From Zanthoxylum bungeanum (taxonomy: Eukaryota; Streptophyta; Magnoliopsida; Sapindales; Rutaceae), in assembly GCA_019454045.1 (NCBI GenBank), contig SKCR01034793.1, positions 1 to 64,000 of the forward strand: a DNA stretch of 64,000 bases, read 5' to 3'. The translations under genes were made by a program, and so were the position numbers. The notes under the pieces are model-generated. The model was not told the DNA's origin. It did not search any database and worked only from the letters and a program-made list of their open reading frames with translations. Each line of letters opens with the position of its first letter. Within the stretch, counting starts at the first letter, position 1. Below, piece after piece: positions 9,300-54,530 of this stretch.

Positions 9300-10560
9300 A
9301 TGTTGGACCACTAGTTGTGAATCCCCCTTAATAGACATATTTTTACTCCCATATCAAGGAGTATTTCTAATCCAAATATTAAAGTCTCGTATTCGGCCTG
9401 ATTGTTGGTACAATATTCGTCCAACGTGACAATAAAAAGAAATATTTCTCCTAAAAGACTGACAAGTACGATCCTTATTCCTACCCCCTTGACGTGCTAG
9501 ACCCGTCAAAGTACATCGTCCATGATTTTAAGTCATATTCACATATTTCCATTTCAATTTCTTTAGTTATGCTTAAACAATGGTGATCAGCTAAAAAATC
9601 AGTAAGGACTTGGTTTTTTATGGCCTTTCGAGGTTCATGTCATATTTTGAATTCCGATAATGAAAGAGACCAAAACCTACCCTTTGATGAAAAATTGGGT
9701 GAAAGAACATGTATTTTACTATTTTGATCTTTGTAACTAGATACACGGTAGTTAGCCTAATATAGGCTCGTAATTTAATGCATATAAAATACAAAGCCAA
9801 ACATAATTTCTCCATTGGAGAATAATTACATTCATATTTCAAAAAATATATGATGACATAATAAATGGCTCTTTCTACGCCCATGTTATCATCCTGCGTG
9901 ATCATTCCAGCTATAGACCGTTCCTCGACATATATGTACAGCTTCATCGGCTGTCCTGGCACATGAGGCACCATTACCGGCGACTTCGCTAAATAGTTTC
10001 TTAGGCTCTCGAAGACTCTTTGATGCTCTTCTGTCCAGACGAAATCATCCTTTTCTTTTAGCCTTAATAAAGATGAGAATGCTTTAATTTTACCTGCACA
10101 ATTAGAAATGAATCTCCTTAAAAAAATTAATTTGCCCTAGAAACCTTTACAATTCTTTCGTGTTCTTAGGGGATCTGGCCTCTATAATTGCTCAAGATTT
10201 ATTTTCATCGATTTCGATTCCCCTTCGATGGACTAGAAAACCTAGAAAATTTCCGGCGCTAAATCCGAAAGCGCACCTGGCAGGGTTTAATTTTAGTTTG
10301 AACTTCCTTATCCGCTCAAAAATCATTCTTAAGTGGTTAAAATGTTCTTCTATGGCCATAGACTTAGCCACTATATCGTCCACATAAACTTCCATAAAAT
10401 TATTAATCATGTCATGAAAGATTAAGTTCATATCTCGTTGGTAAGTGGCCCCATCACTTTTTAGACCGAATGACATCACTACACACTCATAACATCCCAA
10501 AGACCCTGGGCATCTCAAAGCCGTTTTATGAACGTCATCCTCGGAGATATAAATCTGGTT
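9300..10560 (-). pseudogene. Gypsy C reverse transcriptase (C-terminal half) and RNase H
   Basis: Minus-strand remnant. At 10560-10192 it encodes 'NQIYISEDD', 'FGLKSDGATYQRDMN', the catalytic 'VYVDDIVAKS' and 'KLNPARCAFGF', all typical of Tat-type Gypsy RT. RT/RNase H connection pieces follow at 9974-9618. Near 9430-9305 the RNase H core 'NNQAEYETLIFGLEIL' and 'GDSQLVV' are readable in another frame. Similarity stops at about 9300, directly against the antisense ORF, so the rest of RNase H and all of integrase are deleted. The N-terminal RT part lies beyond Copia-2 at 23966-24116. Confidence 0.8.
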
Positions 10561-17065: not shown

Positions 17066-17404
17066 TCAGAGTTTCCCATGCATATTTAATCCATTTTTAT
17101 TAATAATAACTGACTTATTATTAAATGAAATAGAAAAACCACATTCCATAAGTTTTGTTACAGACATAAAATTCCTGTGAAAACCAGGAATATATAGCAA
17201 ACCATTCAAACATAAATAACTCTTATTAAAATTTAAATTTGAAACTCCCACTGCTTTTGCTGAAACAGCATCCCCTGTCTCAACTCTCATGGTAAAGCTA
17301 CCTTCAACAAGGTCCCTCCATGAGTCAAGTAGGTGCAAGGAATAACAAACATTGTTAGTGGCACCAGAATCAACAATCCATATGGATTTATCATCCTCCA
17401 TCAA
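17066..17404 (-). pseudogene. Copia-2 protease and pre-integrase segment
   Basis: Aspartic protease of Copia Pol: 'SIWIVDSGATNNVCYSLHLL' with the catalytic DSGAT, then 'VETGDAVSAKAVGVSNL' and 'CLNGLLYIPGFHRNFMSVTK'. The open frame spans 112 codons. Upstream (17405-17529) the zinc knuckle is read in a neighbouring frame. Confidence 0.85.
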
Positions 17405-20305
17405 AAGAGACTCAATGACAAGTAAATCGTAATTACCTGAATTCTTATTCTCTTTAAGCTCGGTAAGGTATTTCAGACAATTCCTTTTCCAATGCCCCTG
17501 TTGTTCACAATGGAAACATTTTCCTTAGGCACTGGTTCCTTTAGAGCTTTTGTTGTTCTTCTTTTTAATTGGTTTTGCCTTTGCCTTTGCCTTCCAATTT
17601 CCTTTCTTATTCTTCTTTGCAGATTTAGAAAATTCGACAACATTTACCTCGGCATTGGACCTACGAGGACCATTCATAACGGACTCGTAATTAGTAAGCT
17701 CATTTAGCAATTCAGTCAACATAAAAGTGAACTTATTCATAGAACAATTGCTTTTAAACTACATAAAACTCTTCAGAAGGGTTTCCATGATCATTGTCAC
17801 CTGGCTTTGCACAATGATACGTACACCATGGGTTTCAGCCATATTAAGATGAGACATCATCCTTAACATATGGTCTCGAACTGATGTGTCTTCCTTCATG
17901 TTGGATAATTATGACCCATAGCGTCACTATTTGTACAGATCATGGTGTTGTTGTACAAATTAACTATGTGACAAAGGAGATTGCACTCTTATCATTTGTG
18001 ATTAGATCACCTAGATGTATAAATGATAGGAGGTCCCTATAATTTGTTCCTGGATTGAGAATGATATGAGACAGTATCAGTCCACGAAGGATAAATCATT
18101 AAATATCCCTAGCCATAGTATTATCGAGATTGGACATCGATAAATACGTAAAAGACTAGTATTACACTTGTGCGCGTTGTGAGGGCACAACGACATAATT
18201 CTCATATATTTGGGTATAGGATACTCATGCAAGTGTAATAGGAGGTTGTGCTTTACCGATAGTACGGGAAACAGCTTCACTCTCGATAGACCCCCTCAGA
18301 ATTCCATTGGTAGTATGACTATGTGTCTATGGAAGTCCGAAATCAGGGTAGGTGTATTTGGTCTTAACCTGAGACTTGCACCGCTAATACTTGCGACAAT
18401 CAATATACTTTGGTTGCGGTCGTCCAGGGCTTTAACAGGTTCTTTGTACGCCAATGCTGGGTATATTGAGAATCGTAGTGTGTTGGGTGTGATGTCAAGA
18501 CGGAAGTATCACTCCAGTCATAGTGGAGATGATGGTCACGGAGGATACGAGACTGGTTCCCTTAAATGATGCAGCTATCGGGATAAAATGACAAGGTCAA
18601 TTTTATCCGATTATAGAGACTAGTCACCAGACATCCGACATGTGCTTCGTACGGGGCAGACACAATTCCAGCCCCAGGCATAGCACGTGATCATCCGATA
18701 CTGGACAGAAATACACAACACCACGTATACTATGCCTGATATATATCTTTATTCCTGTAAGGATATTTCCAGAGAATTGGGTTGGCATGGCGCTTTGCTA
18801 GAAGCCAACCTTGTCTTGTAAATCGGTAAAACGTAGTACTTGGTACTTACGTGTTCGGATAGTCCGACGACCGAATTTACTGCCAATATATCCGGGGATC
18901 TCATGGGTCGCTTCCCAAAGATTCACCGATGACGTATGACTCGCACTCTAAATTAATCTGGGATTAATTACGGAGATATTTTATCTGGGATAAAATATCA
19001 ATTAAAGAGAGATACGATTAATTTGGAATTAATCGATTAAATTAATATATTCGATATATTAAACGAAATTAGATTTCGATGCGGAATTAAAATTAGATTT
19101 TAATTCGGGCGAACGAATTAATTTAGAATTAATTCGTTAGCGACATGAATAGTAATTATGCTTGGCATGATTATTTAATTAAATTAGATTTAATTACGTC
19201 GCAATGGAAAATTCGTTAATTTGGAATTAGCGAACCCGAGATTATTGTGAGCTCATTCGCATTTCGAATTCGAGTGCGGCACGGAATTCAAATCGAGCGT
19301 CAAATTGCTAGTCGTATCCAGCGTCACATTATTCGTCAATCAAGTGATAGATGTCTTTCACTTTGAGTGATTGACGCCAGTCACTATTCACTGATTGATG
19401 GCAAGTGATGTGTGTGGTTGGCAAGCATTTATTGCTTTAATTGCTTGACTTTTTGGAGGCAAAAATTGTGTATATGATTTTAGGAAAATCATTTACCATT
19501 TTTTCTAACAAATAAACATCTCTCTTCTCCTTCTTCCTCTCTCTATTCACACCCAAGGGGCTGAATATTTTCTTCACTGGTTTTTCTTAAAACCGTGAGC
19601 AGTGGGAAGCTTAGAGTCGCGATTTTGTGGCAAAATCGGGAGTGCTAGTACACTACGAATTCATGCGAAGGTGATAGGGAAGTCTACCCATGAGCCGGGA
19701 ATCGTTCGATGAAGCTTGGAGCTTGACGAAGGAGCAGCCATGGCCGAACTTGGAGGGCAGTGGCAGTGAACTGCCGTGACAGTCCAAAGAGGCACAATCT
19801 GATTTTTTTTGCCTTCCGCGACGCTCAACCGATCGATGTAAGTATTCCGCAACTTCGTCGTATGTATTCGCATGTGTTTTCTTACTTTTGATTCGATACT
19901 TGGGACTTAAAAGAAACCAACACTTCATTCTAGTAGTCAATATAGAGACTATTGCCTCATGTTGTTGCCGGTCTGAAGGTTGCCCAAACATGTCCTATAA
20001 TGACTGCATAATCATTGACGATGTCGCCATAGGCTCATGCTGTGCAGCAAGAACCTCAGACATGGATGCTATCAAATAGATATGGGCTTTTTCATCAGCT
20101 TTAATCCAATTATTATAGGCATTACGTGCAGCTCTGCCAGCATTTGGTGCTGGTTGAGGAGGACATTCCTCCATTTGGAAAACTTTAAGGTCTCCACAGA
20201 CCAAGATAGCATTCATGTCACTTTTCTATTTAACATAATTATCCCCAGTTAATATTTCTTGTTGTTTAAGAATTGAGATAATTGCAGATTAAAATTGTTA
20301 AACAT
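17405..20305 (-). pseudogene. Copia-2 gag, split by solo LTR X2
   Basis: Gag begins at about 20305 (ATG; MFNNFNLQLSQFLNNK), has a frameshift and a TGG-to-TAG-type stop, then reads 'MNAILVCGDLKVF', 'EECPPQPAPNAGRAARNAY', 'ASMSEVLAAQHEPMATSS' and 'MFGQPSDRQQHEA' to 19928. The X2 insertion (17899-19922) interrupts it. It resumes at 17893 with 'RDHMLRMMSHLNMAETHG', then a lysine-rich segment (17740-17525). The zinc knuckle CFHCEQQGHWKRNC (about 17488-17529) is intact as CX2CX4HX4C but lies after a one-base deletion that creates a stop. Confidence 0.8.
17899..19922 (+). mobile_element. Solo LTR X2 (Copia family X), TSD CTTCA
   Basis: 2,024 bp, TGTTGGATAATT...GAAACCAACA, flanked by CTTCA at 17894-17898 and 19923-19927. 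Orientation is plus, inverted relative to X1, X3 and X5. A single LTR with one clean duplication means the internal part was lost by LTR-LTR recombination. The ORF at 18210-18569 inside it has no recognisable protein and is not a gene. The hairpin array spans 18950-19235. Confidence 0.9.
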
Positions 20306-35661: not shown

Positions 35662-36520
35662 AAATTACTTTTCAAGAAAAGTTGCAAAGTGAACAACAAA
35701 TACATTTCGTTGCTCGGAATCATAGAATTGATATCCCATGGAATTATCAGGATATCCAACGAACCTACATTTATACCTTTGGGTGCTAGTTTATCCCGCT
35801 GCGCAATTCTAAAATGCAGGACAACCCCAAATCTTTAAATGTCTAAGACTTGGATTTCTACTGAACCATATCTGATATGGGGTTGTAGAAACAATTTCGA
35901 TGGAACCATATTAAGTATGTAGGCAGCAGTTTATAAAGCGTAACCCCAAAGGTAATATGGAATATCTGTATAGCTCATCATCATTCGCACCATATCCAAT
36001 AAAGTACGATTTCTACGCTCAGATACTCCATTTTGTTGAGGTGTTCCTGGTGGGCTATATTGGGGGAGAATTCCATTATCCCTTAAATAATTTCTGAATT
36101 CTTCACTCATGTATTCACCGCCTCGATCTGATCTAAGGCATTTGATGAATTTACTAGTTTGTTTTTCTACTTCATTTCGAAATATTTTGAACTTGTCAAA
36201 TGTTTCCGACTTATGTTTCATCAGATAGACATATCCATATCTAGACTTGTCATCTGTGAAAGTAACAAAGTATGTGGAACCATCATGAGCGACATGATTT
36301 AATGGACCACACACATTGTTGTGTATTAGCTCCAATAAATCTCCAGCACGGTGCCCAACACCTTGAAATGAGGCATTTCTCATCTTTCCTTGGATACATG
36401 ACTCACAAATCGGATAAGGATCTAAGGTAAGATTTTCAATCAACCATCTTTTACCAATTTGGATAGATGTCTAACACCTATGTGGCTTAATCTCATATGC
36501 CATAATTCAGTATTATTTAA
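35662..36520 (-). pseudogene. Copia-1 integrase
   Basis: 'LWHMRLSHIGVRHLSKLVKD' (about 36500) and 'CESCIQGKM' give the HHCC finger. The catalytic core (36443-35931) has 'LLELIHNNVCGPL', 'FTDDKSRYGYVYLMKHKSE', 'CLRSDRGGEYMSEEFRNYL' and 'PPGTPQQNGVSERRNRTLLD'. The second Asp and the Glu of the DDE triad are present. The first Asp, normally in the residue pair before VCGP, is Asn, which would abolish catalysis. The core itself is uninterrupted for 170 codons. Confidence 0.88.
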
Positions 36521-37123
36521 CTCAGACTTCCTACTTGTATTTTTCTCTATATTAAAGACATTTTTATATGTTTCCAAAACATAGTGATTGTTTGATAAAG
36601 AATATTCACATTTCAATAAATTTTCTTTATCATACAAACATAAAGTTTCATCCTTAATGTTTATTTTATATCCCTCTTTATCTAATATTGGCAGTGATAT
36701 TATTTGTCTGATAATTGAAGGAACATAATAACAGTCATGCAAATCTAATTTACATCCATTTGGGAGATCTAGAATAACAGTTCCTATGGCCTTGACATCC
36801 AATGTCTCGCCATTGTCAACTCTAAGTTGGATCTCCCCTTTATTTAGCCTTCTTTTAACCCTCATTTCCTGTAGGGAATTACAAATATGAGTAGGACTGC
36901 CAGTGTCTAACACCCATCCACTATTTGCATCTAAGGCTAATGAGACGTCAATAATTGGAAAAATACAAAGTGTACCTAAGGGTCCTGTTTTTCCTTTTAG
37001 CTCTAGAAAGTCCTTCTTCCAGTGTCCAGACTTCTTGCATTGTAGACATTGATCACGAGATACTTTCAGTTTTGCACCTTTGCGCTTCTTGGAGTTTTTC
37101 TTTGATATGTTCTTCTTCCCCAT
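36521..37123 (-). pseudogene. Copia-1 protease with degenerate zinc knuckle
   Basis: Open from 37123. 'CLQCKKSGHWKKDF' has C-X2-C-X4-H but Phe where the fourth ligand Cys is expected. The protease follows: 'SGWVLDTGSPTHICNSL' (DTGS at the catalytic position), 'RVDNGETLDVKAIGTVILDL' and 'LHDCYYVPSIIRQIISL'. The start of the open frame is an artefact of a frameshift between gag and protease. Confidence 0.85.
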
Positions 37124-37796
37124 CTTTATTTTCTTTGACTTCCCAGAAGTCTTTGAAGAGCCAGCTCCACCATGGAGATACAGTGTAGGGTTGTCTTTTT
37201 CAAATCTTGCTCCGCCATGCGTAGCATGTTATGAAGTTCTTCATATGTGGCTTGCATCGAATGCGTATGGAAATTTAATACAAAGCCAACATAAGAACCA
37301 GACAAAGAAGACAGAATCAAATTACGGCATGGCCGTTCATGAAACACAATGCCCTGTCATTCCAGATATCGAATTTGGTCTATCACGTTCAAAATATGAG
37401 CGCTGACAGCTCCTCCCTCCTTGAGTTCAACACAGAACAATTCCTTAGACCTTCGATAAAGTTCCATCTCTTGATTTGCCTCGGACAACTCCTTGAGTGT
37501 TCGCATGATGCTCCAAGCATTCGGTACTTCAATGTACTATCTCAGCAAATTTGGAGCCATCGATCCCAAGATGTAGGATTTCACCTTCAGGTTATCATCC
37601 ATCCATCTATCAAAATTTCTCGCTCTTCTGGAGTGGAGTCAGGATCGATATCAACAGGCAGTGGATTGATCGTGACATAAGTCAACTATTCATACTCCAA
37701 AACAAGGCGTATGTTCATTTCCCATTCGAAATAGTTCTCGACTCCTTTTAGCTTATAGGAATCCAAGAGTTTCATCAATGGATTAGCGGCAGCCAT
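37124..37796 (-). pseudogene. Copia-1 gag
   Basis: The start ATG at 37796 gives 'MAAANPLMKLLDSYKLKGVE' then 'NYFEWEMNIRLVLEYE', a typical Copia Gag N-terminus. Later, in another frame, 'LILSSLSGSYVGFVLNFHTH' and 'MQATYEELHNMLRMAEQDL' (37347-37200) represent the UBN2-type region. Multiple frameshifts. Confidence 0.8.
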
Positions 37797-40948: not shown

Positions 40949-42071
40949 TGGGACAACAGACACAATTAGACTTAAGTTCTTCCCTTTTGCCCTTAAGGAT
41001 AGAGGTAAAAGATAGTTGTATTCTTTAAGACCTATGACAATAGGATCATGGGGCGAGATGACACATGCAATCTTTAACAAAAACTTCCCACACCATAAGA
41101 CGAATGCCTTGAAAAGAAAAATCTCCACCTTCTCCCAGAGAGACAATGAAATTATTTATCAAATATGAGAGATGTATAAGGAGATGCTAGCTAGTTGCCC
41201 TCACCATGGATATGAAGTTGGCACTTAGTAAGTTATTTTTAATGATGGTTTAACCCCTAGAGAGTGCCAATTCATAGAGACAATGTGCAATGGTGAGTTT
41301 ATAAGAAATGGCCCTGATGAGGCATTCAGGTACTTAGATGACTTAGCCGAGAAAACCCACACTTGGACTAGACCTAATGCCCTGGATAACACGATAGGAC
41401 ACACACTCCTTCTAGTAGAGACATACACCACTTCAGGGAAGAGGATAGTCTTAGGGAACATGATGAGCTATTGACTAGAGAGTTAGGAGCCTTAAGAGCT
41501 AGAGATAGCAAGACTATAATGCAGTCGCCCACCTGGAACCCGAAGAGTGTCTTGTATATAGTGAGATGATGGGATATATGAGGAACAATGTAATAATTAA
41601 TAGATGTACAAGAAGACATACACACCTTATTCAGATACCTATAATCCTGGTTGGCGGAACCATCATAATCTTAGTTGGAAATAGGAGAGTCTCATCAGCC
41701 TACTCAAGCACCTCAAACTAAGAGTTACAGTGCGCCTCAGTTTCCTACACATGCCACCACCCCTAGAAATTCTTTAGAAGACAGTGTGCATGCATTTATA
41801 GATGCCCAGAGTAAAACTAATCAAAGGTTTGAGTCGTTCATAGATTATATTGTTGAGGATAAGAAAGAATTAAGAGTCAAATCTCTAAATTGACTAATGT
41901 CCTAAGTGTGCAAGAACAAGGAAAATTTCTATCTCAGACTCAACCAAATCCACAAGGGCAACAAATGGCACAGGCTGATCATGAAGCCTCCAATGTAAAA
42001 GGTGTTATTTCATATTCACTAGGAGTGGTAAGGACGTAGGATTGTCGGACACCCCTAACATTATATGTGAC
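40949..42071 (+). pseudogene. Element B gag, C-terminal part
   Basis: Continues the gag broken at 31810. In successive frames it reads 'IRLKFFPFALKDRGKR', 'SWGEMTHAIFNKNFPHHKTN' and 'RKISTFSQRDNEIIY', then 'NGEFIRNGPDEAFRYLDDLA', and a proline-rich segment ending 'NSLEDSVHAFIDAQSKTNQR'. This is Athila-type gag. Stops and frameshifts are frequent. It ends at the GTGAC target site (42067-42071) of the Athila element. Confidence 0.8.
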
Positions 42072-42375
42072 TGATGAGTGGTAAAACTATCACTATTTCC
42101 CACTCATTTAACCTAATATTTTGTACAGTTTCTTGGGTTTTGTGAATATTTTGATGTGTTTTATGTTATTTGTATATAAATAAAGTTTCGGGACATTCTG
42201 GAGGTGATTTGGGGCAAAACAGGAAAAATTGGAAAAAAGGGCATTTTGGTAATTTTGGGCGTCTCGACGCCCAAGCCCTTGGCGTCGCGACGTTTAACAT
42301 GCGCCGAGTCTTCGACGTGCGCCTGGTCAACGAGTCAGAATTTGAAAAGTTTGACTTTGCTAACGTACACCGTGC

Positions 42376-42588
42376 CACGTGTCACCATCAGAGCCGATTT
42401 GCTAACGTGCGCCGTGCCATGTGTCATCATCCTACGATGCCGACAATCACCATTGCCACGTGTGCCACATGGCATCCTACGTGCCTCCATGTAATCATCC
42501 ATGTCAGCAAGTCAACAAGTAAACACATTCCACGTGTCGTGCCACATCATCATCAGCTAATCACAAGCGTGACACGTGTCGCCACGTG
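42376..42588 (+). promoter_or_regulatory. Cluster of five G-boxes (CACGTG) in U3
   Basis: CACGTG at 42376, 42457, 42531, 42573 and 42583, most within GCCACGTGTC, plus several decayed CATGTG or CACGTC versions between 42410 and 42690. This motif is the binding core of bZIP and bHLH factors. It lies 200-410 bp upstream of the TATA box. The 3' LTR keeps CACGTG at 52795, 52997 and 53066. Confidence 0.7.
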
Positions 42589-42740
42589 TCGCAATCCTAC
42601 GGTGCCGACAATCGATTTCGCCATGTGTCACCACGTCATCGCCATGTCAGCATCATAATTGGGCTCTCAGCCACCTCTTATCCGAATCACCATGTGTCAA
42701 GCCGAGAGCATGCCACAAATCACTGTTCCAGCATCGCGAC

Positions 42741-42761
42741 GACGCCCAAGCTCTTGGCGTC
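42741..42761 (+). repeat. Near-palindrome GACGCCCAAG...CTTGGCGTC in U3
   Basis: A 21-bp hairpin-forming sequence just upstream of the TATA box. The 3' LTR lacks this block, keeping only one 'gcgtcgcgacgcccgagg' copy, consistent with a deletion of about 24 bp between cgcgacg repeats. Confidence 0.7.
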
Positions 42762-42785
42762 GCGACGCCCGAGGCCTATCCGTGC

Positions 42786-42793
42786 TTATAAAT
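42786..42793 (+). promoter_or_regulatory. TATA box of the Athila 5' LTR
   Basis: Ttataaat in 'gtgcttataaattgagc'. The 3' LTR has tatatatt at 53136-53143 in the same context. Transcription would start near 42815-42825. Confidence 0.65.
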
Positions 42794-44180
42794 TGAGCTC
42801 GAAATTTCAGATTTTGTTATACCATTCCCTCCCATTTCTTTGATGTAAATAGGGGGTCTTCTCTCTCTAAGTTTCTTTTTAATTTTAGTTTTGTAATTAA
42901 TTTTAATTACGTTCTGTAATAATAGTATTTACTTTCTTTACTTTTTGACAGTTTTTACTATTACCATGATGAGGTAACTTCCTCCTACTATGGTGAAAGG
43001 TAATTCTTTTACTATTGCTATTTAGATTAATCTCCCTTAATATAATATATTCACCATTTAAAATTTGACTTAATGAGGATACCGTTATATTGGAGGTTGG
43101 TTATTTAATTTAAACTGGTTAAACCTGACTAAGCAAGGATACCGCCAGATTGGTCGATTGGTAATTTAATTTTGGTTCCGCCTTTATGGCTGGTTATTTT
43201 GATTCCGCCTATATGGCTGGTTGGACTTAATTTGACTTAATCAGGTTACCGCCTATATGGCTAGTTGGTAATATCATCACGAGTAAATATATTATTTAAG
43301 GGAGATATCTAAATAGTAAATAGTAGAAGTTAATTCCTTTTGCCTTAGCATTTTATTTTATTTTTACTTTTCAGTATTTACTTTACCGCATTTACTTTTC
43401 AGCATTTTATGTCTTTTATTTTACTAGCCCTAGTTATGTGTTGTAACTAAATTAGTTATCTGGGGTGTGATGACTTTTAATATCACCGGTTTATAAGGGG
43501 TTAGATTATAGTTGAAGTAATATAAAGATTTATTTATTGAGTCTTAATCTTAATACTTTTTAATTAACTGGCCATTAATTAAATTGATTAGGTAAACTTA
43601 AAATGAACTAGACATAGGGATTTTAAGTTTAAGACCTTAGACTCAATAGCCCACGATCTTCTTGAGGATAGATAACCCTTTAATAGATTTCCTTACAGGA
43701 TAGGAATATACCTGTCGAGCGGGGGTAGCCATAATTGGAACTTAATCTTAATGAATCTAGGTAATTTGATTGACATAGACATATGGTTCAATTGGATTAT
43801 ACTGGGTATTTGTAATTGACCATCGGAAGAGGCTTTTACATAATTTAGTGTTCCAGGTTAATAAATCAATATATTATCCAACTTTAAGATAATCACTTCA
43901 TCTTTAAATAATATTGGAAGAAATCACAACCTAGATAGTTTTATAAATTTGGATTTTTTTTTCTCAACCTACTTTTACGCAATTTTATTACTTGTTTTTA
44001 AATTTAGAATCATCGCCATTTTAATCAATCAAACCAAACAACCTGTTAGATACCAGTAATCACTTGACCTCATAAAATTGATAACAAAAGGTTTAAGTCC
44101 TCGTGGGATCGATATTTTTTATACTCCTTGAACGATACGTACGCTTGCGTTATACGCGTGTGTAATCACCGGTCATGTTT

Positions 44181-44198
44181 TTGCGCCGTTGCCGGGGA
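44181..44198 (+). other. Primer-binding site (tRNA-Asp)
   Basis: TTGCGCCGTTGCCGGGGA matches the tRNA-Asp(GUC) primer site TGGCGCCGTTGCCGGGGA at all but one base and lies five bases after the LTR end. Confidence 0.9.
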
Positions 44199-44254
44199 CT
44201 TATTTATCTTTTACTATTAGTTTAGGGGATAGATACCTTTACTTGTATCTAATT

Positions 44255-44292
44255 TTCTTTTTACTTATTGTTTTTGTTTTCTTGTGTTTCAG
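44255..44292 (+). promoter_or_regulatory. Splice-acceptor-like site before gag
   Basis: A pyrimidine-rich run of about 35 bases ends in TTGTGTTTCAG at 44292, 15 bases before the gag ATG at 44308. Candidate donors in the transcribed leader are AAAG|GTAATT near 43000 and CTAG|GTAATT near 43757. This may be a leader intron; RNA evidence is needed. Confidence 0.45.
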
Positions 44293-44307
44293 GTTCTTAA
44301 GAACTTC

Positions 44308-45640
44308 ATGAGACGAACCAGAAGTTTTGAACTTCGACCGCTTGACCCGGAAATTGAAAGAACTATCAGACAGTTGAGAAGGGAAAGACGAGAAGGCCAA
44401 GAAGCTTTAGTCAACATGGAACCTGAACCGTTGGAGGTTGCTTCACCAATTCCCATTCGAGACAGAGCCATTCCGGTGATTGACAAACTCATTTCTTGTA
44501 TTATACTTCCTCCCTTACCAGCAAATGTAGGTGACATCAAAACATGCATTCAGATGATTCAGAAGTCAGTTCAGTTTGGGGGGAATGCAACTGAAGATCC
44601 TAATGCCCACATCAGTAACTTCCTGGAAGTTTGCGGCACTTTCAATTACAACCGAGAAGCTGAAGAAGCAATGAGATTGCGAGTTTTTCCATACTCCTTG
44701 AAGGACAGAGCTAAATCTTGGCTACATTCACTACCAGCAGGTTCTATCACAACATGGAACACTTTAGCCACCAAATTTATTGCAAAGTACTTTCCACCAG
44801 CCAGAACTGGAAAACTGATGAATGACATCACATCCTTTGTACAACAAGACTCTGAAACTCTCTACGAAGCTTGGGAAAGGTATAAAGATCTGCTTCGGAA
44901 ATGTCCTCACCATGAGATTCCAAAATAGCTTCAAGTCCAAACATTCTATAATGGGCTTTTTGGAATAATGAGAACCACAATCGATGCTGCTGCTGGAGGA
45001 GCTTTAATGGCAAAAGGAGAAGATCAAGCCTGGGAACTAATTGAAGAAATGGCCAACAACAATTCCTATGGCCAACTGAAAGGAGCATGATCCAAAGAAT
45101 TACAGGAATTTATGAAAGTGGAGCCAATACAGCAGTCAACACCAAGCTAGATCAGATATGCAAATTCATGAAACTCTTACCACTGGATCTACAAGTTCAC
45201 CATATGGAGGAGCACCAGAATCAAACAAACCAACTTGAAGAAACGGTGAATTTTGTCAACAATTTCAACAGACAGGGGAACAATCCTTATTCCAACACCT
45301 ACAACCCAGGGTGGAGGAATCATCCTAATTTTCATGGAGCAACAATTCAGGCCAACAACAGCGGACTATCAACCACCTGGATTCCAGCAACAGAACAAAG
45401 GCCAGGAGCAGGAAAATGAACCAGGAACAGCAGAAGTGCTGGCTCAGTTAAAAAATATGATGCTATCTTTCAAGCCAATCAGCTTCCATCAAAGCACTGG
45501 AGAATCAATCGGACAACCGGCCAATGCTCAGAGTTACAGACCATCAGGAAATCTTCCCAGCAACACAAAACCCAATCCAAGGAACCGAGGGAAGGAGCAA
45601 TGTCAAGCCATTACTTTGAAAAGCGGTACTGAAATCAACA
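44308..45640 (+). pseudogene. Athila gag
   Basis: Starts at ATG 44308 (MRRTRSFELRPLDPEIERTI). The longer open frame begins at a GTG and is not used. The retrotransposon gag domain reads 'DPNAHISNFLEVCGTFNYN', 'LRVFPYSLKDRAKSWLHSLP' and 'ITTWNTLATKFIAKYFPPAR' up to 'RYKDLLRKCPHHEIPK', where a TAG (44926-44928) replaces the usual Trp. The frame continues 'TTIDAAAGGALMAKGEDQAW' and then glutamine/asparagine-rich linker sequence in shifting frames. It would encode the structural Gag polyprotein. Confidence 0.9.
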
Positions 45641-45643
45641 AAG

Positions 45644-46339
45644 ATGTTGGAATCAAGATGTCCCAAGAAGAAGTTCCAAAAGAAGCTGAGAAACGGATGG
45701 AGGAAAAAGAAGCAAAGGAAAAGAAGCAAAGGAAAAAGACCAGAAAGAATCATTCCACCTCCACATTTTCCTCAGCGTCTTCAGAAAAACAAATTGGACA
45801 AGCAGTTTGCTCGATTTCTGGAGGTTTTCAAAAAGCTGCACATCAACATCCCATTTGCAGAAGCTTTGGAAGAAATGCCCAGTTATGTCAAATTCATGAA
45901 AGATATTCTTTCACGAAAATGGAGATTGGGAGACTACGAAATAGTAGAATTAACGGAAGAATGCAGCGCCATTATTCAGAGGAAACTTCCCCCAAAGTTG
46001 AATGATCCTGGCAGTTTCACAGTTCCATGCACCATTGGAGAACATTATATCGGTAAGGCTTTATGTGATTTAGGTGCTAGTGTTAACTTGATGCCTTTTT
46101 CTATTTATAGGAAACTGCAGATTGGAGAAGCAATGCCTACCTCAGTTTCATTGCAACTTGCTGACCGAACACTTGCATTTCCAAGAGGTGTTGTTGAAGA
46201 TGTGCTGGTGAAAGTAGACAAACTAATTCTCCCAGAAGATTTCATCATCCTTGACATGGAAGAAGAAAAAGAAATAACTATCATTCTTGGGAGACCATTT
46301 TTGGCTACAGGTAAAACTGTGATTGATGTGCAAAAATGA
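45644..46339 (+). pseudogene. Athila protease
   Basis: Open for about 231 codons. A lysine-rich start and 'KKLHINIPFAEALEEMPSYV' precede the protease: 'CTIGEHYIGKALCDLGASVN' with the active-site motif DLGAS (about 46066-46080), 'LMPFSIYRKLQIGE', and 'DFIILDMEEEKEITIILGRP' followed by FLATG. This is the typical Athila protease. It ends at a TGA (46337-46339), with the frame resuming directly in RT-linker sequence. Confidence 0.9.
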
Positions 46340-46348
46340 GAACTGACC

Positions 46349-48225
46349 ATGAAAGTACAGGACCAAGAAGTGACTTTTAATGTTTTCAAGGCCATGAAAT
46401 TTCCGAGCGATGAAAAGGAAGAAGAATGGTTCATAGTTGATGTTGTTGATAGTATCGTTCAAAATACTGAGCCAAATCCCACAGATACACTTGAAGCTTG
46501 CATCACCAACATGAATGACAGTGAGCTAGACGCTGAAATCCTGGAATGTATCAACTACCTTGACAAACCATTCCGATTCAAAGCAACACCACCAGTTGAA
46601 AGTTTGGAACTTCCAAAGAAAGATCGAATCAAGCCTTCGATTGAAGAACCACCACAGCTGGAGATGAAGTTACTTCCGAGCCATCTCAGGTATGCATTTC
46701 TTGGAAACTCTTCTGAATTAAATATTATTATTTCTTCTTCACTAACATTAGAGCAGGAAGAAAAGTTGCTGAGAGTGTTACGAGAGCACAAGAAAGCCAT
46801 TGGCTGGACTATAGCAGACATTCGAGGCATTAGTCCATCATTTTGCATGCATAAGATCCTGATGAATGATGAGTAGAAACCCATAGTGGAACATCAACGG
46901 AGACTCAATCCAATCATGAAGGAAGTCGTGAAGAAAGAAATCATCAAATGGTTAGATGCTAGCATCATTTACCCCATCTCAGACAGTAGTTGGGTGAGTC
47001 CTATGAAGTGTGTGCTGAAGAAATAAGGAAATACTGTGGCCACTAATGAAAAAAATGAATTTATTTCGACAAGAATGGTGACTGGATGGAGAGTATGCAT
47101 GGATTACCGAAAGCTGAACAAAGCCACGAGAAAGGACCATTTTCTGTTACCATTTATTGATTAGATGTTAGACAGACTGGCAGGACATGAGTTCTATTGC
47201 TTTCTGGACGGATATTCAGGATACAATCAGATTGCCATCGCCCCAGAAGATCAGGAGAAAACCACATTTACATATCCTTATGGTACTTTTGCTTTCCGCA
47301 GGATGCCATTTGGACTATGTAATGCCCATACCACATTTCAGCGTTGCATGATGGCCATTTTCTCAGACATGCTGGAGCAGAGTATGGAGGTTTTCATGGA
47401 TGACTTTTCTGTGTTTGGAGATTCTTTTGATCATTGTTTGCAAAATTTGGAACAGGTGTTACAAAGATGCGAAGATACAAACCCGGTACTCAACTGGGAG
47501 AAATGCCATTTCATGGTGCAAAAAGGCATTGTTCTTGGACACCGGATCTCACAAAAGGGAATCGAGGTAGACAAAGCAAAGATCGAGACAATTGAGAAAC
47601 TACTTCCACCAACATCAGTCAAAGGCATTCGGAGTTTTCTCGAACATGCAGGTTTTTACAGGAGATTTATCAAAGACTTTTCCAAAATTGCAAAACCACT
47701 TTGCAATCTTTTGGAAAAGGATGTACCTTTCAACTTCACCAAAGAATGCCATGAAGCCTTTGAAATCTTAAAACAGAAGCTGGTCTCTGCTCCCATCATA
47801 GTAGCACCAGACTGGACCGTTCCATTTGAGGTAATGTGTGATGCTAGTGATTTTGCTGTAGGTGCAGTTTTGGGACAACGTAAACCAAAGACTTTCCACA
47901 CCATTTACTACTTCATTAGAACTCTGAATGAAGCTCAACTCAACTACACAACCACTGAAAAGTAGTTGCTCGCAGTTGTGTTCGCTTTTGACAAATTCTG
48001 CTCTTATCTGTTGGGTCCCAAAGTGGTGGTCTACACAGATCATTCAGCAATCAAATATCTGATCACAAAGAAAGATGCAAAACCCAGATTGATCCGTTGG
48101 ATACTTCTTTTGAAAGAATTCGACGTGGAGATCAGAGACAAGAAATGGACAGAAAACCAAGTGGCAGATCATCTATCGAGGCTCGAAAATGGAGAAACAG
48201 TTGACAAATATCTGTCAATCAAAGA
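46349..48225 (+). pseudogene. Athila reverse transcriptase and RNase H
   Basis: 46349-46876 is the PR-RT linker ending 'HKKAIGWTIADIRGISPSFC'. The RT continues with 'RVCMDYRKLNKATRKDHF' (about 47090-47150), a stop at 47161, then 'FYCFLDGYSGYNQIAIAPED', 'TYPYGTFAFRRMPFGLCNAH' and the catalytic FMDD (47393-47404). RNase H: 'FEVMCDASDFAVGAVLGQ', a TAG at 47963, '[20 protein letters not shown]' and '[14 protein letters not shown]'. At least three premature stops. Motif style (GYSGYNQIAIAPEDQEKTTF) places it in the Athila lineage. Confidence 0.93.
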
Positions 48226-49561
48226 AACTTTTCCATATGAACAGTTTTTTGCCATAAAACAGCAGGAAGTCCCTTGGTATGCTGACTATGTCAACTACAT
48301 TGTGTCAGGAAAATGGCCGTTGGAATGGACAACTCAGCAACGGAAGAAGTTCTTCAAAGAAGTCAAGCACTATGTCTGGGATGAATCGTACATGTTAAAA
48401 CACTGTGCTGATCAATTATTGAGACGGTGTATTCCACATGAGGAAATCAACAGTGTTTTGCAGCACTGTCATTCATCACCATATGGCGGACACTTCAGCG
48501 GAAACAAAACTGCAGCCAAAGTCCTACAATCAGGTTTGTTCTGGCCCACTCTTTTTAAAGATGCTTATCTTTTTGCTTTTCAATGTGACAGGTGCCAGAG
48601 AATGGGAAATATTTCCAAGAGAAATGAAGGACCGTTGCGAAATATTCTAGAAGAATAAATATTTGATGTATGGGGTATTGATTTCATGGGACCCTTTGTT
48701 CCATCATTCGGAAACTTGTACATCCTGGTTGCTGTTGACTATGTTTCCAAATGGGTCGAAGCAATTGCACTGCCATCCAATGATTCAAAATCGTGATCAA
48801 ATTCCTGAAAAAAGAATATTTTCACTCGGTTCAGAACACCTCGTGCAATCATTAGTGATGGTGGCTCTCATTTCTGCAACAAATACTTCGATGTACTCCT
48901 ATCCAAATACGGAGTTACTTACAAAGTTTCCACTGCTTACCATCCACAGTCAAATGGACAGGTTGAGGTTTCAAACAGAGAGATCAAAAGAATCTTAGAG
49001 AGAACCGTTGGATCAACAAGGAGGGACTGGTCAACAAAACTAGATGATGCATTATGGGCCTACCGGACAGCTTACAAGACACCCATTGGTATGTCCCCAT
49101 ATCGATTGGTGTTTGGGAAAGCGTGCCATCTACCAGTTGAGCTTGAGCACAAGGCGTACTGGGCACTGAAGAAGTTGAATTTTGATTCACAAGCTGCATG
49201 AGAGAAAATACTTCACCAGCTCAATGAATTGGAGGAATTTCGCTTACAGGCTTATGAAAACGCCAAATTGTACAAGGAAAAGACCAAAAAATGGCATGAC
49301 CAAAAAATAGTGCACAGACAGTTGGAACCAAGGTAGCAGGTGTTGTTGTACAACTCGAGGTTGAAACTTTTCCCTGGAAAGTTAAAATCTAGGTGGTCAG
49401 GACCATTTGTGATCACTCAAGTTTTACCTTATGGAGCAATTGAGTTATTGGATCCCAATACCAATAACACATTCAAGGTTAACAGTCAGCGTGTCAAGCA
49501 CTACTGGGGAGAATCATTTGAGCGACAAAAAGAAAGTGTCACACTTTCAGATCCAGCCTAA
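48226..49561 (+). pseudogene. Athila integrase
   Basis: HHCC finger: '[20 protein letters not shown]' then '[11 protein letters not shown]'. Core: '[18 protein letters not shown]', then, after a frameshift near 48790, '[20 protein letters not shown]' and '[20 protein letters not shown]'. The three catalytic acidic residues are present. C-terminal: '[20 protein letters not shown]', a TGA at 49199 and TAG at 49336, and the terminal 'KSRWSGPFVITQVLPYGAIE' to the stop at 49559-49561. Confidence 0.92.
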
Positions 49562-49575
49562 CGTTCAAGAAGTCA

Positions 49576-49621
49576 CGTCTAGCTGACGACTTTAAACTTA
49601 GCGCTCACAGGGAGGAAACCC
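49576..49621 (+). other. Conserved post-integrase motif
   Basis: Cgtctagctgacgacttt, then aaacttagcgctcac, then agggaggaaaccc. Nearly the same string occurs in element B at 55581-55627, although the protein frames around it are lost there. It lies just after the integrase stop and before the extra ORF. Function unknown. Confidence 0.7.
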
Positions 49622-49654
49622 ATGCAATTCTTGTATATGTTGTGATTTAATTTT

Positions 49655-49673
49655 GTGTGTTTAGTTTTTGCAG
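49655..49673 (+). promoter_or_regulatory. Splice-acceptor-like site before the CRP-like ORF
   Basis: Tgtgtttagtttttgcag ends at 49673, 17 bases before the ATG at 49691. Good polypyrimidine tract and TGCAG. It would let a spliced mRNA translate the ORF first, like an env subgenomic message. Inference only. Confidence 0.4.
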
Positions 49674-49690
49674 ATTAAGATATTTCAAAG

Positions 49691-50233
49691 ATGGAAGAAG
49701 CTCTCGCAAATTTTCACAAGCAATTTCATTCTCTCCCTCAAAAATCTCTGATAAAAATCTACAAAACTCACTTGGAACGGATGAGGTTATTGACAATCCA
49801 TGGTATTCCTAATGATATTTGTTGGGTAATTGAAGCACGAGTCCGATTGGCAGGTGAGTCTTCTGACTCTTTTATTAAAAATATGTCTGTTTTTGGAAGA
49901 AGCACCTATGCAAAGAAACGTAGAGCTAAGAAAATGGGTGTTTGTTACAAATGTGCACGCTGGAATTGCAATACTCGTTGTCGTTATTTAGGAATGGTGT
50001 CTGATAATCGCGAAGACAAAATTAAATTCATTAGGGATGGCTTGAGTAAGGAGTCTTTAGATGATATATCTTCGACTCTTGAGACGCATCCCAGTGGATA
50101 TGTTCACATAGCCTTCGTAAATTACATACACAATTTCAAAAAAAAAAAGACAACTGTTAAGTCTCAGGAATCTGACTCAAAAAGACCCTGTTTGCCAATT
50201 TATAAGAAAATTGGATGGGAAGCTTGTCCCTGA
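49691..50233 (+). CDS. Cysteine-rich, basic accessory protein, Carla_C4-like (possible nucleic-acid-binding/silencing-suppressor type)
   Basis: A 180-codon ORF with a true ATG and no interruption, the only intact frame in this element. Residues 1-55 are a mostly helical-looking N-terminus ending 'DICWVIEARVRLAGE'. Residues 69-81 are the basic patch GRSTYAKKRRAKK. Four cysteines follow at 85, 88, 93 and 97 (VCYKCARWNCNTRC, CX2CX4CX3C), then 'NREDKIKFIRDGLSKE' (106-121) and a lysine/serine-rich tail. The basic patch followed at once by a Cys cluster and a short V/IxxFIxxG-like segment resembles the cysteine-rich nucleic-acid-binding proteins of carla- and allexi-type plant RNA viruses, some of which suppress RNA silencing. 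No signal peptide or membrane segment is seen, so it is not an envelope-like protein. The relationship is recognised by motif only. It could also be an unrelated zinc-binding protein. Confidence 0.6.
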   Translation: MEEALANFHKQFHSLPQKSLIKIYKTHLERMRLLTIHGIPNDICWVIEARVRLAGESSDSFIKNMSVFGRSTYAKKRRAKKMGVCYKCARWNCNTRCRYLGMVSDNREDKIKFIRDGLSKESLDDISSTLETHPSGYVHIAFVNYIHNFKKKKTTVKSQESDSKRPCLPIYKKIGWEACP

Positions 50234-50483
50234 CGCATAGACGTCAATCAAGCCACTACTTTTCTTGTAAATATTATATCTCTTTTTCTTTTCCTAATAA
50301 CTGTAATTTGTTTTGTTGTACTTTATCCGACAGGATCCAGACCTTTTTGACTATCACGATTTATTTTACTGTTTAACTAATATTTTTTATTTGGCAGGTA
50401 CTAGTGCTATTATTTTACTCACCCTTTTCAGGTGTTATAAATTCAACTTATCATTGCACTTTTGAAGACATCCAGAGTAAAAC
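50234..50483 (+). promoter_or_regulatory. Spacer with three acceptor-like AG sites before LOG
   Basis: No ORF of note. Pyrimidine-rich tracts end in gacag (50333), ggcag (50397) and cccttttcag (50431). The last is the best acceptor and lies 52 bases before the LOG ATG. A donor-like CAG|GTACTAG overlaps the second. This would suit alternative splicing of a second accessory message. Confidence 0.35.
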
Positions 50484-51137
50484 ATGGAAGCCACTTCAAG
50501 AAGACGAGTTGAAAACATCTGTGTGTTTTGCGGTAGTAGTGTTGGTACTAAACCACAATACGTAGAAGCAGCACAAGAATTGGGTCGAGTCTTAGCTGCA
50601 AGGAATATGTAGTTAATATATGGCGGAGGAAATCTTGGACTAATGGGGATCATTTCAAAGGCTGTACAGGAGGGAGGCAGTCACGTTTTGGGAATCATCC
50701 CAAAACCCTTGGCAGAATCAAATCTTATTGAACCATCAAACGGAGAGGAACTGATCGTGCCAGGTATGTCTGAACGACTAGTGGAAATGATTAACCGTGC
50801 TGATGCTTTTATTGCTTTGCCAGGTGGCTTGGGTAGACTGGAGGAAATTTTTATTGTGTTATCTTGGGCGAACCTGAACATACACCAGAAACCAATTGGA
50901 CTGCTCAACGTTGATGGATTTTATGATTTTCTTTATGTGTTTCTTGATGATGCTCGGAGAAATGGGTTCGTGTCAAAACCTTTAAAAGAACTCATCTTTA
51001 CTGCCAGAACTGCTCCGGATCTAATAGACCAACTCTTAGCCTATGAACCACAAGTTGACCCTATCCTCTCAAAGATAAATTGGTCCGAGGACGATCGTGG
51101 TAAGGGGCGTCGGATTAATCATGATCTTAACCTTTAA
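50484..51137 (+). pseudogene. LOG-like: LOG-family cytokinin riboside 5'-monophosphate phosphoribohydrolase, captured, intronless, one in-frame TAG
   Basis: Enzymes of this family release free cytokinin bases from their riboside monophosphates in the cytosol. From the ATG at 50484: 'RRVENICVFCGSSVGTKPQY' is the conserved N-terminal fold. TAG at 50610-50612 interrupts codon 43. Beyond it come 'LIYGGGNLGLMGIISKAVQE', 'SHVLGIIPKPL', 'MSERLVEMINRADAFIALPG' and GLGRLEE, then 'NIHQKPIGLLNVDGFYDFLY'. The family signature PGGxGTxxE is PGGLGRLEE here: Thr is replaced by Arg, while the Glu and the upstream Arg in MSERLVEM are kept. Total 217 codons, the usual LOG length. Plant LOG genes have several introns and this copy has none, so it was copied from mRNA. 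Without readthrough the product is truncated; an ATG at 50643 could start a shorter form. Confidence 0.9.
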
Positions 51138-52434
51138 TTTCCTGTAGAATTTCAACTAACCAGGTATTATCCTTTAAACTCTTCTTCTACCGTTTAAGAC
51201 ATTGGGGACAATTTCTCATTTAGGTTTGGGGGAGGGAATTAGTTGATTAATATTTTTTTTAGTTGTGTGTTTTTTTTATTTTTTAGTCCAAAATATTTCG
51301 AAAAATACAAAAAAAAATGAAAAATTTTCAAAAATTACAAAAATATTTTGTGTTTTTGTTTTGACTAAAAAGTTGAAATTGGTAAGAGATATCTGAGTAA
51401 GGAGTTTCCACTCCTGAGACGTATCTCAAACCTATTTTGAAACAAGTTAATTTTTGTTTATTTCCTTTTGAATTATTTAATTTGTAAATTCTCCATAAAA
51501 CTGACTAAAATGGACCTTCATATGCTCAGTTGGCAGGTATTATCAACATACATAGTAACATACGGACATGAGCTGTAATTGAAAAGTTTGTAATATTCAG
51601 TGCTCTAGATTAATTGGAAGAAGCATCTCAAAAAGTGATGGAGTAAAAAAAAAACATATGAGATCCGAGTTTTTAAGTCTATAAGGGTGTTTTAACACCT
51701 AGTGTCCTAAAACCAACTAGTTTGGGAGTCACTAGCCCAAAGCTCGCTATATGGATCAAAGATGCTGCAAAAATATATATATATATCGAATTCTGAGTAA
51801 TTAAGTCCGTAGGGGTGTCTTAACACCTGGTTCCCTAAAGCCAATTGGTTTGGGAGCCACCGACCCAACACTCACTACATAGACGGAAGGTATTGTATAT
51901 AAATAAAAAAATAGAGAAAAATCAAAGAAAAAATCAGGAAAATTTATTCCATTGCTACAAAAAGATGTGAAATCTGATAGAACTTTAGGACAAAAATATT
52001 TTACTCTCTTATCAACTGTACTCATGACTGTTGTGGGCAAAAATGAGTTGATTAATATTATGTTAGTTGTGTATATGGAGAATGGTAAATATAATCGAAG
52101 AATTTACTTATTCAGTAATTTAGAATGAAACAAAACAAGTAGTAACTTGGAGTAGAAGTTTCACTTGAATAGTCACTAACTTCTTTATTCTCTTTTCTCT
52201 TGTCTTTTTGCTTTTGTGTGCATTAGTTTCACTACCTTTTTACTTTTTAAAATATTTGTGGGTATCATTGTTGTAAACCCTCACGAGACTACAACTCGTC
52301 CACTGGGGACACCTAGGGGTTTAAAGGCTTGTTGCATATGATAAATGCAACCGTGATCCCTACGGAAGTGGCTTAGTTAAATTTTATTTATGTTATTTTA
52401 TTCTGTGTTTTGCTCGAGGACTAGCAAAATGTTA
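51138..52434 (+). other. Athila 3' untranslated region
   Basis: Non-coding. It holds an internal purine-rich tract, 'taggtttgggggaggga' at 51221-51237, preceded by 'cattggggacaa', which looks like a second polypurine tract. A duplicated segment of about 90 bp occurs at 51674-51764 and 51799-51889 (125 bp apart), each copy with a small hairpin ggtgt(t/c)ttaacacc. No gene is seen. Confidence 0.65.
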
Positions 52435-52446
52435 GGTTTGAGGGTG
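52435..52446 (+). other. Polypurine tract of the Athila element
   Basis: Ggtttgagggtg immediately before the 3' LTR TGATGAGTGG. It follows 'gctcgaggactagcaaaatg', a common lead-in in plant Gypsy elements. Confidence 0.75.
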
Positions 52447-54525
52447 TGATGAGTGGTAAAAATATCACTATTTCTCACTCATTTAACCTAATATTTTGTA
52501 TAGTTTCTTATGTTTTGTGAATATTTTGATGTGTTTTGTGTTATTTTGTATAAATAAAGTTTCAGGACATTCTCGAGGTGATTTGGGGCAAAACATGAAA
52601 AATTGGAAAAAATGGCATTTTGGTAATTTTGGGCGTCGCGAAGCCCAAGCCCTTGGCGTCACGACGTCTAACATGCGCCGAGTCTTCGCTAACGTGCGCC
52701 TGGTCAATGAGTCAGAATTTGAAAAGTTTGACTTTACTAACGTACGCTGTGCCACCTGTCACCATCAGAGCCGATTTGCTAACGTGCGCCGTGCCACGTG
52801 TCATCATCCTACGATGCCGACAATCACCATTGCCACATGTGCCACATGGCATCCTACGTGCCTCCATGTCATCATCCATGTCAGCAAGTCAACAAGTCAA
52901 CATTGCCATGTGTCGTGCCACATCATCATCAGCCAATCACAGTGTGACATGTGTCGCCATGTGTCGCAATCATACGGTGCCGACAATCGATTTCGCCACG
53001 TGTCACCACGTCATCGCCACGTCAGCATCATAATTGGGCTCTCAGCCACCTCTTATCCGAATCGCCACGTGTCAAGCCGAGAGCATGCCATAAATCACTG
53101 TTCCAGCGTCGCGACGCCCGAGGCCTATCCGCGCCTATATATTGAGCTCGAAATTTCAGATTTTGTTGTACCATTCCCTCCCATTTCTTTGATGTAAATA
53201 GGGGGTTCTTCTCTCTCTAAGTTTCTTTTAATTTTAGTTTTGTAATTAATTTTAATTACGTTCTGTAATAATAGTAATTTACTTTCTTTACTTTTTACAG
53301 TTTTTACTATTACCATGATGAGGTAACTTCCTCCTGCTAGGGTGAAAGGTAATTCTTTTACTATTGTTATTTAGAGTAATCTCCCTTAAATATAATATAT
53401 TCACCATTTAAAATTTGACTTAATGAGGATACCGTTATATTGGTCGGTTGGTTATTTAATTTAAACTGGTTAAACCTGACTAAGCAAGGATACCGCCAGA
53501 TTGGTCGGTTAGTAATTTAATTTTGGTTCCGCCTTTATGGCTGGTTATTTTGATTCCGCCTATATGGCTGGTTGGACTTAATTTGACTTAATCAGGTTAC
53601 CGCCTATATGGCTAGTTGGTAATATCATCACGAGTAAATATATTATATTAAGGGAGATATCTAAATAGTAAATAGTAGAAGTTAATTCCTTTTGTCTTAG
53701 CATTTTATTTTATTTTTACTTTTCAGTATTTACTTTACCGCATTTACTTTTCAGCATTTTATGTCTTTTATTTTACTAGCCCTAGTTATGTGTTGTAACT
53801 AAATTAGTTATCTGGGGTTGTGATGACTTTTAATATCACCGGTTTATAAGGGGTTAGATTATAGTTGAAGTAATATAAATATTTATTTATTGAGTCTTAA
53901 TCTTAATACTTTTTAATTAACTGGGCATTAATTAAATTGATTAGGTAAACTTAAAATGAACTAGACATAGGGATTTTAAGTTTAAGACCTTAGACTCAAT
54001 AGCCCACGATCTTCCTTGAGGATAGATAAATCTTTAATAGATTTCCTTACAGGATAGGAATATACCTGTCGGGCGGGGGTAGCCATAATTGGAACTAATC
54101 TTGATGAATCTAGGTAATTTGATTGACATAGACATATGGTTCAATTGGATTATACTGGGTATTTGTAATTGACCATCGGAAGAGGCTTTTACATAATTTA
54201 GTGTTCCAGGTTAATAAATCAATATATTACCCAACTTTAAGATAACCACTTCATCTTTAAATAATATTGGAAGAAATCACAACCCTAGATAGTTTTATAA
54301 ATTTGGATTTTTTTTCTCAACATACTTTTACGCAATTTTAATTACTTGTTTTTAAATTTAGAATCATCGCCATTTTAAATCAATCAAACAAACAACCTGT
54401 TAGATACCAGTAATCATTTGACCTCATAAAATTGATAACAAAATACCGGTCAGTGGGATCGATACTTTTTATACTACTTGAACGATACGTGCGCTTGCGT
54501 TATACGCGTGTGTAAGCACCGGTCA
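52447..54525 (+). repeat. 3' LTR of the LOG-bearing Athila element
   Basis: 2,079 bp, colinear with 42072-44175. Differences include a missing GC-rich hairpin block before the TATA box and many C/T or G/A differences at CpG, for example in the CACGTG boxes. The ORF at 52496-53197 is a histidine/cysteine-rich artefact of the CCACGTGTC-type repeats. Confidence 0.95.
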
Positions 54526-54530
54526 GTGAC

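Follow-up and report, generated by a model that had tools for sequence, protein, structure and literature searches.

The window analysed here, a 64,000-nucleotide stretch of a Zanthoxylum bungeanum contig, contains an LTR retrotransposon that spans positions 42072 to 54525 and is flanked on both outer sides by GTGAC, a perfect 5-bp duplication. Both LTRs, the duplication and the domains of a gypsy-type pol are present, and two additional genes lie between the integrase and the 3' LTR: one of the type of the cysteine-rich nucleic-acid-binding proteins (NABP) of carlaviruses, the other of the LOG family. The features are as follows.

42067..42071, no strand: target site duplication GTGAC, left copy
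42072..44175, plus strand: 5' LTR, TG...CA, 2104 bases
44181..44198, plus strand: primer binding site TTGCGCCGTTGCCGGGGA, read from the sequence
44233..44928, plus strand: gag frame (PF03732, Retrotrans_gag, E 5.4e-19)
45868..46470, plus strand: protease-like region, matching the first frame of the reduced element L033
47165..48658, plus strand: frames of reverse transcriptase, RNase H and the zinc-binding domain of integrase, broken by a stop (PF00078, PF17919, PF17917, PF17921)
48809..49201, plus strand: integrase core, C-terminal part (PF00665, E 9.3e-5; 23.1 bits, short of the curated cut-off of 32.6)
49691..50237, plus strand: NABP-like gene of the carlavirus cysteine-rich nucleic-acid-binding type (PF01623, PF05515)
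50484..51137, plus strand: LOG gene with one TAG and one motif change, a basic C-terminal tail and a DLNL end
52435..52446, plus strand: polypurine-rich stretch ahead of the 3' LTR, seen in the sequence
52447..54525, plus strand: 3' LTR, 2079 bases
54526..54530, no strand: target site duplication GTGAC, right copy

The two LTRs are 95.0% identical over 2069 aligned bases (66 transitions and 38 transversions; K2P 0.052). We take the primer site to be of the tRNA-Asp type, as in Athila elements, and the polypurine-rich stretch presumably serves as the polypurine tract; the region at 45868..46470, for which a Pfam scan gave no match, is labelled a protease on our reading of its motif. The gag, reverse transcriptase (RT), RNase H and integrase sequences match Pfam profiles, with frames that are broken in this copy. 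On its general features we assume that the element belongs to the Athila lineage, with which it shares the gypsy order of pol and the placement of extra genes between the integrase and the 3' LTR; it differs in carrying NABP and LOG, whereas neither ATHILA ORF-1 (PF03078) nor an env-like gene, nor any Athila-specific domain, was matched by Pfam in the frames scanned. The absence of ORF-1 is not defining because the majority of Athila elements lack it, the domain being given for 16% of them in the available part of PMC6317226. Elsewhere the window is rich in retroelements, with copia- and gypsy-type pieces on the minus strand at 3383-4192, 9618-10136, 17066-17524 and 35931-37228.

The LOG frame is intronless and comprises 217 residues, with the internal TAG at codon 43 and an Arg in place of the Thr of the PGGxGT motif at codon 118. 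Its open 174-residue part matches PF03641 (E 7.2e-35, Pfam) and Arabidopsis At2g37210 (E 5.4e-46). A preliminary description, made from the letters alone, had reported just such a frame, with one TAG and a Thr-to-Arg change, inside an LTR element bounded by a 5-bp duplication, downstream of the integrase and upstream of the 3' LTR; domains, LTRs and duplication were all found, and this observation is confirmed.

The NABP-like gene, situated between the integrase and LOG, was absent from that description. It matches Carla_C4 (PF01623; E 4.4e-6, 27.0 bits, curated cut-off 20.9) and Viral_NABP (PF05515; E 7.6e-6, 26.5 bits, curated cut-off 23). A tblastn search with P0122 indicates a change of frame for its last ~30 codons, and the window copy is broken in both LOG and NABP. 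We found 243 related proteins, and the named ones among the 120 listed come from Xanthoceras, Acer, Citrus, Rhamnella and Orobanche. Each of the two profiles matches 54 of 61 aligned relatives at E 0.001 or less (best E 1.1e-8), and in this alignment a basic KKRRAK stretch and four cysteines are nearly invariant and a C-terminal block is shared. The fold model is poor (pLDDT 67); the top Foldseek matches are flexivirus NABPs and silencing suppressors, the best at E 0.037 and none at E 0.001 or less.

The element protein resembles the carlavirus proteins in its profile matches, its basic stretch, which is of the nuclear localization signal (NLS) type, and its central cysteines, and it differs from them in its length (~182 residues), in the conserved N-terminal helices and C-terminal block that extend beyond the viral match, and in being encoded by an LTR element. 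A non-viral origin, with flexiviruses having acquired an older element gene, or with both deriving from an unknown plant gene, is a possibility that we rate as rather low: the viral-family match is moderate and limited to the middle of the protein, and the additional terminal parts of the element proteins are conserved, but both profiles are named for plant viruses. According to the available part of PMC12172455, suppression of RNA silencing is common among the carlaviral cysteine-rich proteins, proteins related to them have both an NLS and a zinc finger, and the one from Chrysanthemum virus B is a transcription factor that induces hyperplasia. An integrated citrivirus-like replicase is described in the part of PMC3136472 available to us. 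Among the IMG/VR viral contigs we found no NABP relative.

Copies of the element and selection on LOG

Copies were sought in the same genome (3.96 Gb in 51,709 contigs). With the LOG DNA as query, the first look gave 3,750 candidates, and all 40 scored places, the window included, were at least 95% identical. Twenty copies were fetched, which with the window make a set of 21 (the window set). NABP is present in 19 of these and unbroken in six; LOG is open in 11 and not open in 10; RT is open in three, RNase H in three and integrase in nine, these pieces, of differing lengths, being present in 16 of the 21. For sampling independent of LOG, we took plus-strand copies, 12 of the 40 listed by an integrase search and 8 of the 150 listed by an NABP search. 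LOG, in some cases broken, was at the expected place in 12/12 and 8/8 of them. All 150 scored places in the NABP search were 90-99% identical to the query, with about 122 stop-free by hand count. Within the Z. bungeanum genome, this family regularly carries the NABP-LOG pair.

Variants were analysed in the 13 copies that retain all six gene pieces and divided into those shared by at least two copies and those private to one. Among shared variants, pN/pS is 0.10 for LOG and for gag, 0.02 for RT, 0.11 for RNase H, 0.03 for integrase and 0.39 for NABP, compared with 0.40-0.58 across the pieces among private variants (0.40 for LOG). The contrast between the two classes gives a Fisher p of 0.019 for LOG (six tests, uncorrected) and p of 0.005 or less for the gag and pol pieces, and is lacking for NABP (p 0.6; 13 copies).

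Pairwise comparisons, in which the pairs are non-independent, point the same way. In the window set, dN/dS of LOG is 0.23 at dS 0.06 and 0.17 at dS 0.13 (95 pairs each). In a second set of 22 copies, described below, it is 0.21 at dS 0.08 (2 pairs), then 0.13 and 0.13, and in the older bins 0.10 at dS 0.55 (85 pairs) and 0.07 at dS 0.88 (4 pairs). Between the two sets it is 0.136 at dS 1.65 (430 pairs). Overall, the ratio is ~0.2 in young pairs and 0.07-0.14 in old ones, values in which dN is lowered, most in the second set with its protein query, because the copies come from best-match lists. The LOG frame is under purifying selection.

At L057:477-2635 (minus strand) there is a second element, a decayed one, in which an integrase piece is likewise followed by NABP and then LOG. 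Its LOG lies at dS ~1.45 from the window set, with a dN/dS of 0.265. NABP copies compared with one another give a dN/dS of 0.47-0.77, and comparison with this relative gives 0.39; given these values and the lack of a contrast between private and shared variants, the case for constraint on NABP rests on the cross-species alignment.

The preliminary description had proposed that LOG is a captured component of the element, and had considered a one-off passenger as the alternative. The further copies and the purifying selection bear out the former; the latter, for which that description had named a missing second copy or a dN/dS near 1 as the signs, is rejected by the copy counts together with dN/dS. 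Its statement that LOG is much better preserved than the surrounding pol stands for open frames (11 of 21, versus three, three and nine for RT, RNase H and integrase) and fails for selection, the shared-variant pN/pS of LOG (0.10) exceeding those of RT (0.02) and integrase (0.03).

The second set was obtained with the LOG protein P0009 as query; all 150 scored places matched at 84-98%, and about 80 of the 150 were stop-free by hand count. In the 22 loci that we fetched, a protein search of ~1.5 kb upstream of LOG found NABP in none (0/22), and five contain a ~60-base piece matching NABP DNA; most retain a piece of the integrase end. Three of the loci, L055-L057, were taken as 9.9-kb stretches, the 3' LTR lying beyond the stretch end, and each shows an LTR repeat, a primer site and an interior of 3.7-3.9 kb in which tblastn found, out of seven element proteins, LOG alone. 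The 5' LTR of these loci is followed by a long frame, of 306-309 codons (but 165 in L056), which matches no Pfam profile significantly; to judge by its CCHC-like stretch, it may be a gag remnant kept beside LOG. In L033 the deletion is different, and protease-like sequence is fused to the integrase end. The position of the catalytic Arg is occupied by Gln in 18, Arg in three and His in one of the 22 second-set copies, as opposed to Arg in 20/20 of the window set. These reduced elements have lost pol and NABP, and their LOG, which in most of them has Gln in place of the catalytic Arg, has stayed under selection.

The LOG protein and its relatives in other plants

We aligned 121 element-type LOGs, the window included and some of them fragments, and compared them with 120 host LOGs. 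In CgLOG, according to the available part of PMC4979012, R99 and E122 are catalytic, and K100, H97 and E125 contact the base or prenyl group. The equivalents of R99, E122 and T119 are kept in 107, 118 and 116 of the 121 element-type proteins, respectively, whereas K100, H97 and E125 are kept in 11, 35 and 11; all six are kept in 120/120 host LOGs. W129 is kept in 119 of the 121. The fold model of P0002 (pLDDT 86.6, tail disordered) has as its best solved match At2g37210 (2a33, E 1.1e-19), and the LOG fold is present. Of the 121 element-type proteins, 86 have a strict C-terminal LxLxL (76 of the 97 near full-length ones), compared with 0/120 hosts, and a basic cluster near the C-terminus is found in 106/121 and 1/120, respectively; in Xanthoceras and some other members, the basic cluster is present and LxLxL is absent. 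The LxLxL sequence may be an EAR motif, a type that recruits TOPLESS. Thus, the LOG fold is retained and so, outside one abundant sublineage, are the catalytic residues, with the pocket changed and a tail added. Compared with the plant LOGs At2g37210/LOG3 and At5g11950/LOG8, to which it is 46% and 41% identical in the structure alignment, the element LOG shares the fold and PGGxGTxxE, and differs in its separate tree group, changed pocket, new tail and lack of introns.

In a careful 43-row tree rooted with a bacterial LOG, in which the element rows were hand-picked and the bootstrap was not fully settled, the 31 element-type LOGs fall together on one side (bootstrap/SH-aLRT 89/88) and the 11 host LOGs on the other (93/96). 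A larger but quick tree (103 element-type rows, 41 host rows), for which a careful search was unfinished, shows this split too, with SH-aLRT 94. Since the host rows were found with a piece of AtLOG3, plus one of LOG8, they are mainly of the AtLOG3 type. On the sequences compared, the element-type LOGs are separate from those host LOGs that were sampled, and unsampled host groups may be nearer to them.

Element-type LOGs are conserved among rosids and asterids, the term being based, outside Z. bungeanum, on similarity, on multicopy clusters and, in Orobanche and Citrus, on four gene models. In these models, P0182 and P0237 (Orobanche) and P0189 and P0232 (Citrus), NABP and LOG occur together, and beyond the Z. 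bungeanum genome the element context is seen only as such fused models. Proteins of Populus (P0046, P0052 and P0088) and Xanthoceras (P0010, P0020 and P0110), named LOGL10 or hypothetical protein, group with the element-type LOGs. The LOG DNA had no match among phage records, and four LOG relatives (L001-L004, 32-40% identity) were found in IMG/VR viral contigs; the one at L001:1-567 (40% identity), located at one end of a 45.7-kb contig, is perhaps a phage or bacterial LOG.

Known elements, competing explanations and a possible role

The association of LOG with LTR elements has precedents. Steinbauerova et al. 2011 reportedly described two Athila-like elements with an extra ORF in the 3' part and similarity to LOGL4. 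The YgdH/LOG domain has been found in the consensus sequences of LTR elements from two Citrus species and, once a filter is dropped, from Populus trichocarpa as well, a finding presented as consistent with that of Steinbauerova et al. 2011 (PMC9289625). These elements and ours share a LOG domain in Gypsy-type LTR elements, and the available part of the report is silent on the NABP, the tail and pocket changes and the reduced LOG-keeping elements that are present here (PMC9289625). The preliminary description, in stating that it knew of no LTR family carrying LOG, had missed this published work. In the same source, in the part available to us, orchid Gypsy elements are described that have likewise captured and fixed an enzyme, an AlkB-like RNA demethylase thought to act against host control; enzyme and lineage are different, and for the orchid enzyme activity was demonstrated (PMC9289625). 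Other extra ORFs are reported for sunflower Athila and Tekay elements (PMC11728184, available part). PMC7264820 makes no mention of LOG, cytokinin, Citrus or carlavirus, nor does the available part of PMC6317226 mention "lonely" or Citrus. The NABP-LOG pair and the reduced LOG-keeping elements are unreported in the open-licence literature searched, in the titles and abstracts of which we also found no report of a carlavirus-type gene in an LTR element. LOG capture is already known, then, and what seems new is the pairing of LOG with NABP, together with its remodelling and its retention in reduced elements.

We consider it likely that the window holds a decayed copy of an abundant Ty3/gypsy (Athila-like) family carrying NABP followed by LOG and acting as outlined below; our confidence in the structural and evolutionary part of this explanation is very high, and the mechanism is offered tentatively. 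By analogy with its published viral relatives, NABP would counter RNA silencing of the element. The LOG-derived protein may act in the nucleus through its tail, with the NLS-like cluster and the EAR-type motif recruiting a corepressor, and hydrolysis of cytokinin or other nucleoside monophosphates would be kept solely by those lineages whose active site is intact. The two proteins together could render dividing or germ-line-forming cells permissive for transposition.

The preliminary description had favoured a canonical enzyme that raises active cytokinin where it is expressed and promotes division. The modelled LOG fold with its closest solved match in At2g37210, the catalytic R99 and E122 of most members, the Arg in 20/20 copies of the window set and the MHERK retained by a Xanthoceras group would all fit such an activity. 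However, the base and prenyl contacts invariant in hosts are mostly replaced, the tail is new and conserved, and Gln stands at the catalytic Arg in 18/22 copies of the second set, which remains under constraint; the replaced contacts and the Gln make cytokinin activation doubtful for part of the family. Simple raising of active cytokinin by the element LOG thus appears doubtful on these residue patterns, and as an account of the family we judge the canonical enzyme to be possible, on the improbable side. The earlier interpretation is, accordingly, partly supported.

A passenger status, in which the element gains nothing from LOG and NABP, might be suggested by the broken window LOG, the 10 of 21 copies that are not open and the moderate dN/dS of NABP. 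It is, nonetheless, very unlikely in view of the low dN/dS of LOG at high divergence (0.07-0.14), the retention of LOG by reduced elements devoid of pol and NABP, and the conservation of element-type LOGs across rosids and asterids; for LOG it is already refuted, unless best-match bias explains the low dN. Equally improbable, in our estimate, is domestication, that is, constrained LOGs that are host genes residing in old elements and kept by the host. Some Populus records are indeed annotated as LOGL10 genes, but there are hundreds of near-identical copies in LTR-bearing elements, and the constraint is visible in variants common to several copies.

Beyond the favoured explanation of a family carrying NABP and LOG, we put forward as a speculation, with the odds against it, that a eudicot lineage of elements fixed a virus-type suppressor and a LOG turned regulator, with a nuclear, corepressor-recruiting tail and a changed active site, and that LOG-only elements persist through LOG aiding their spread. 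If this is true, a retrotransposon stably holds genes of an anti-silencing type and of a hormone pathway, and the role of the extra ORFs of plant LTR elements, an old question, becomes directly testable. Caution is also due with plant genes annotated as LOG or LOGL10, some of which could belong to elements and encode altered active sites.
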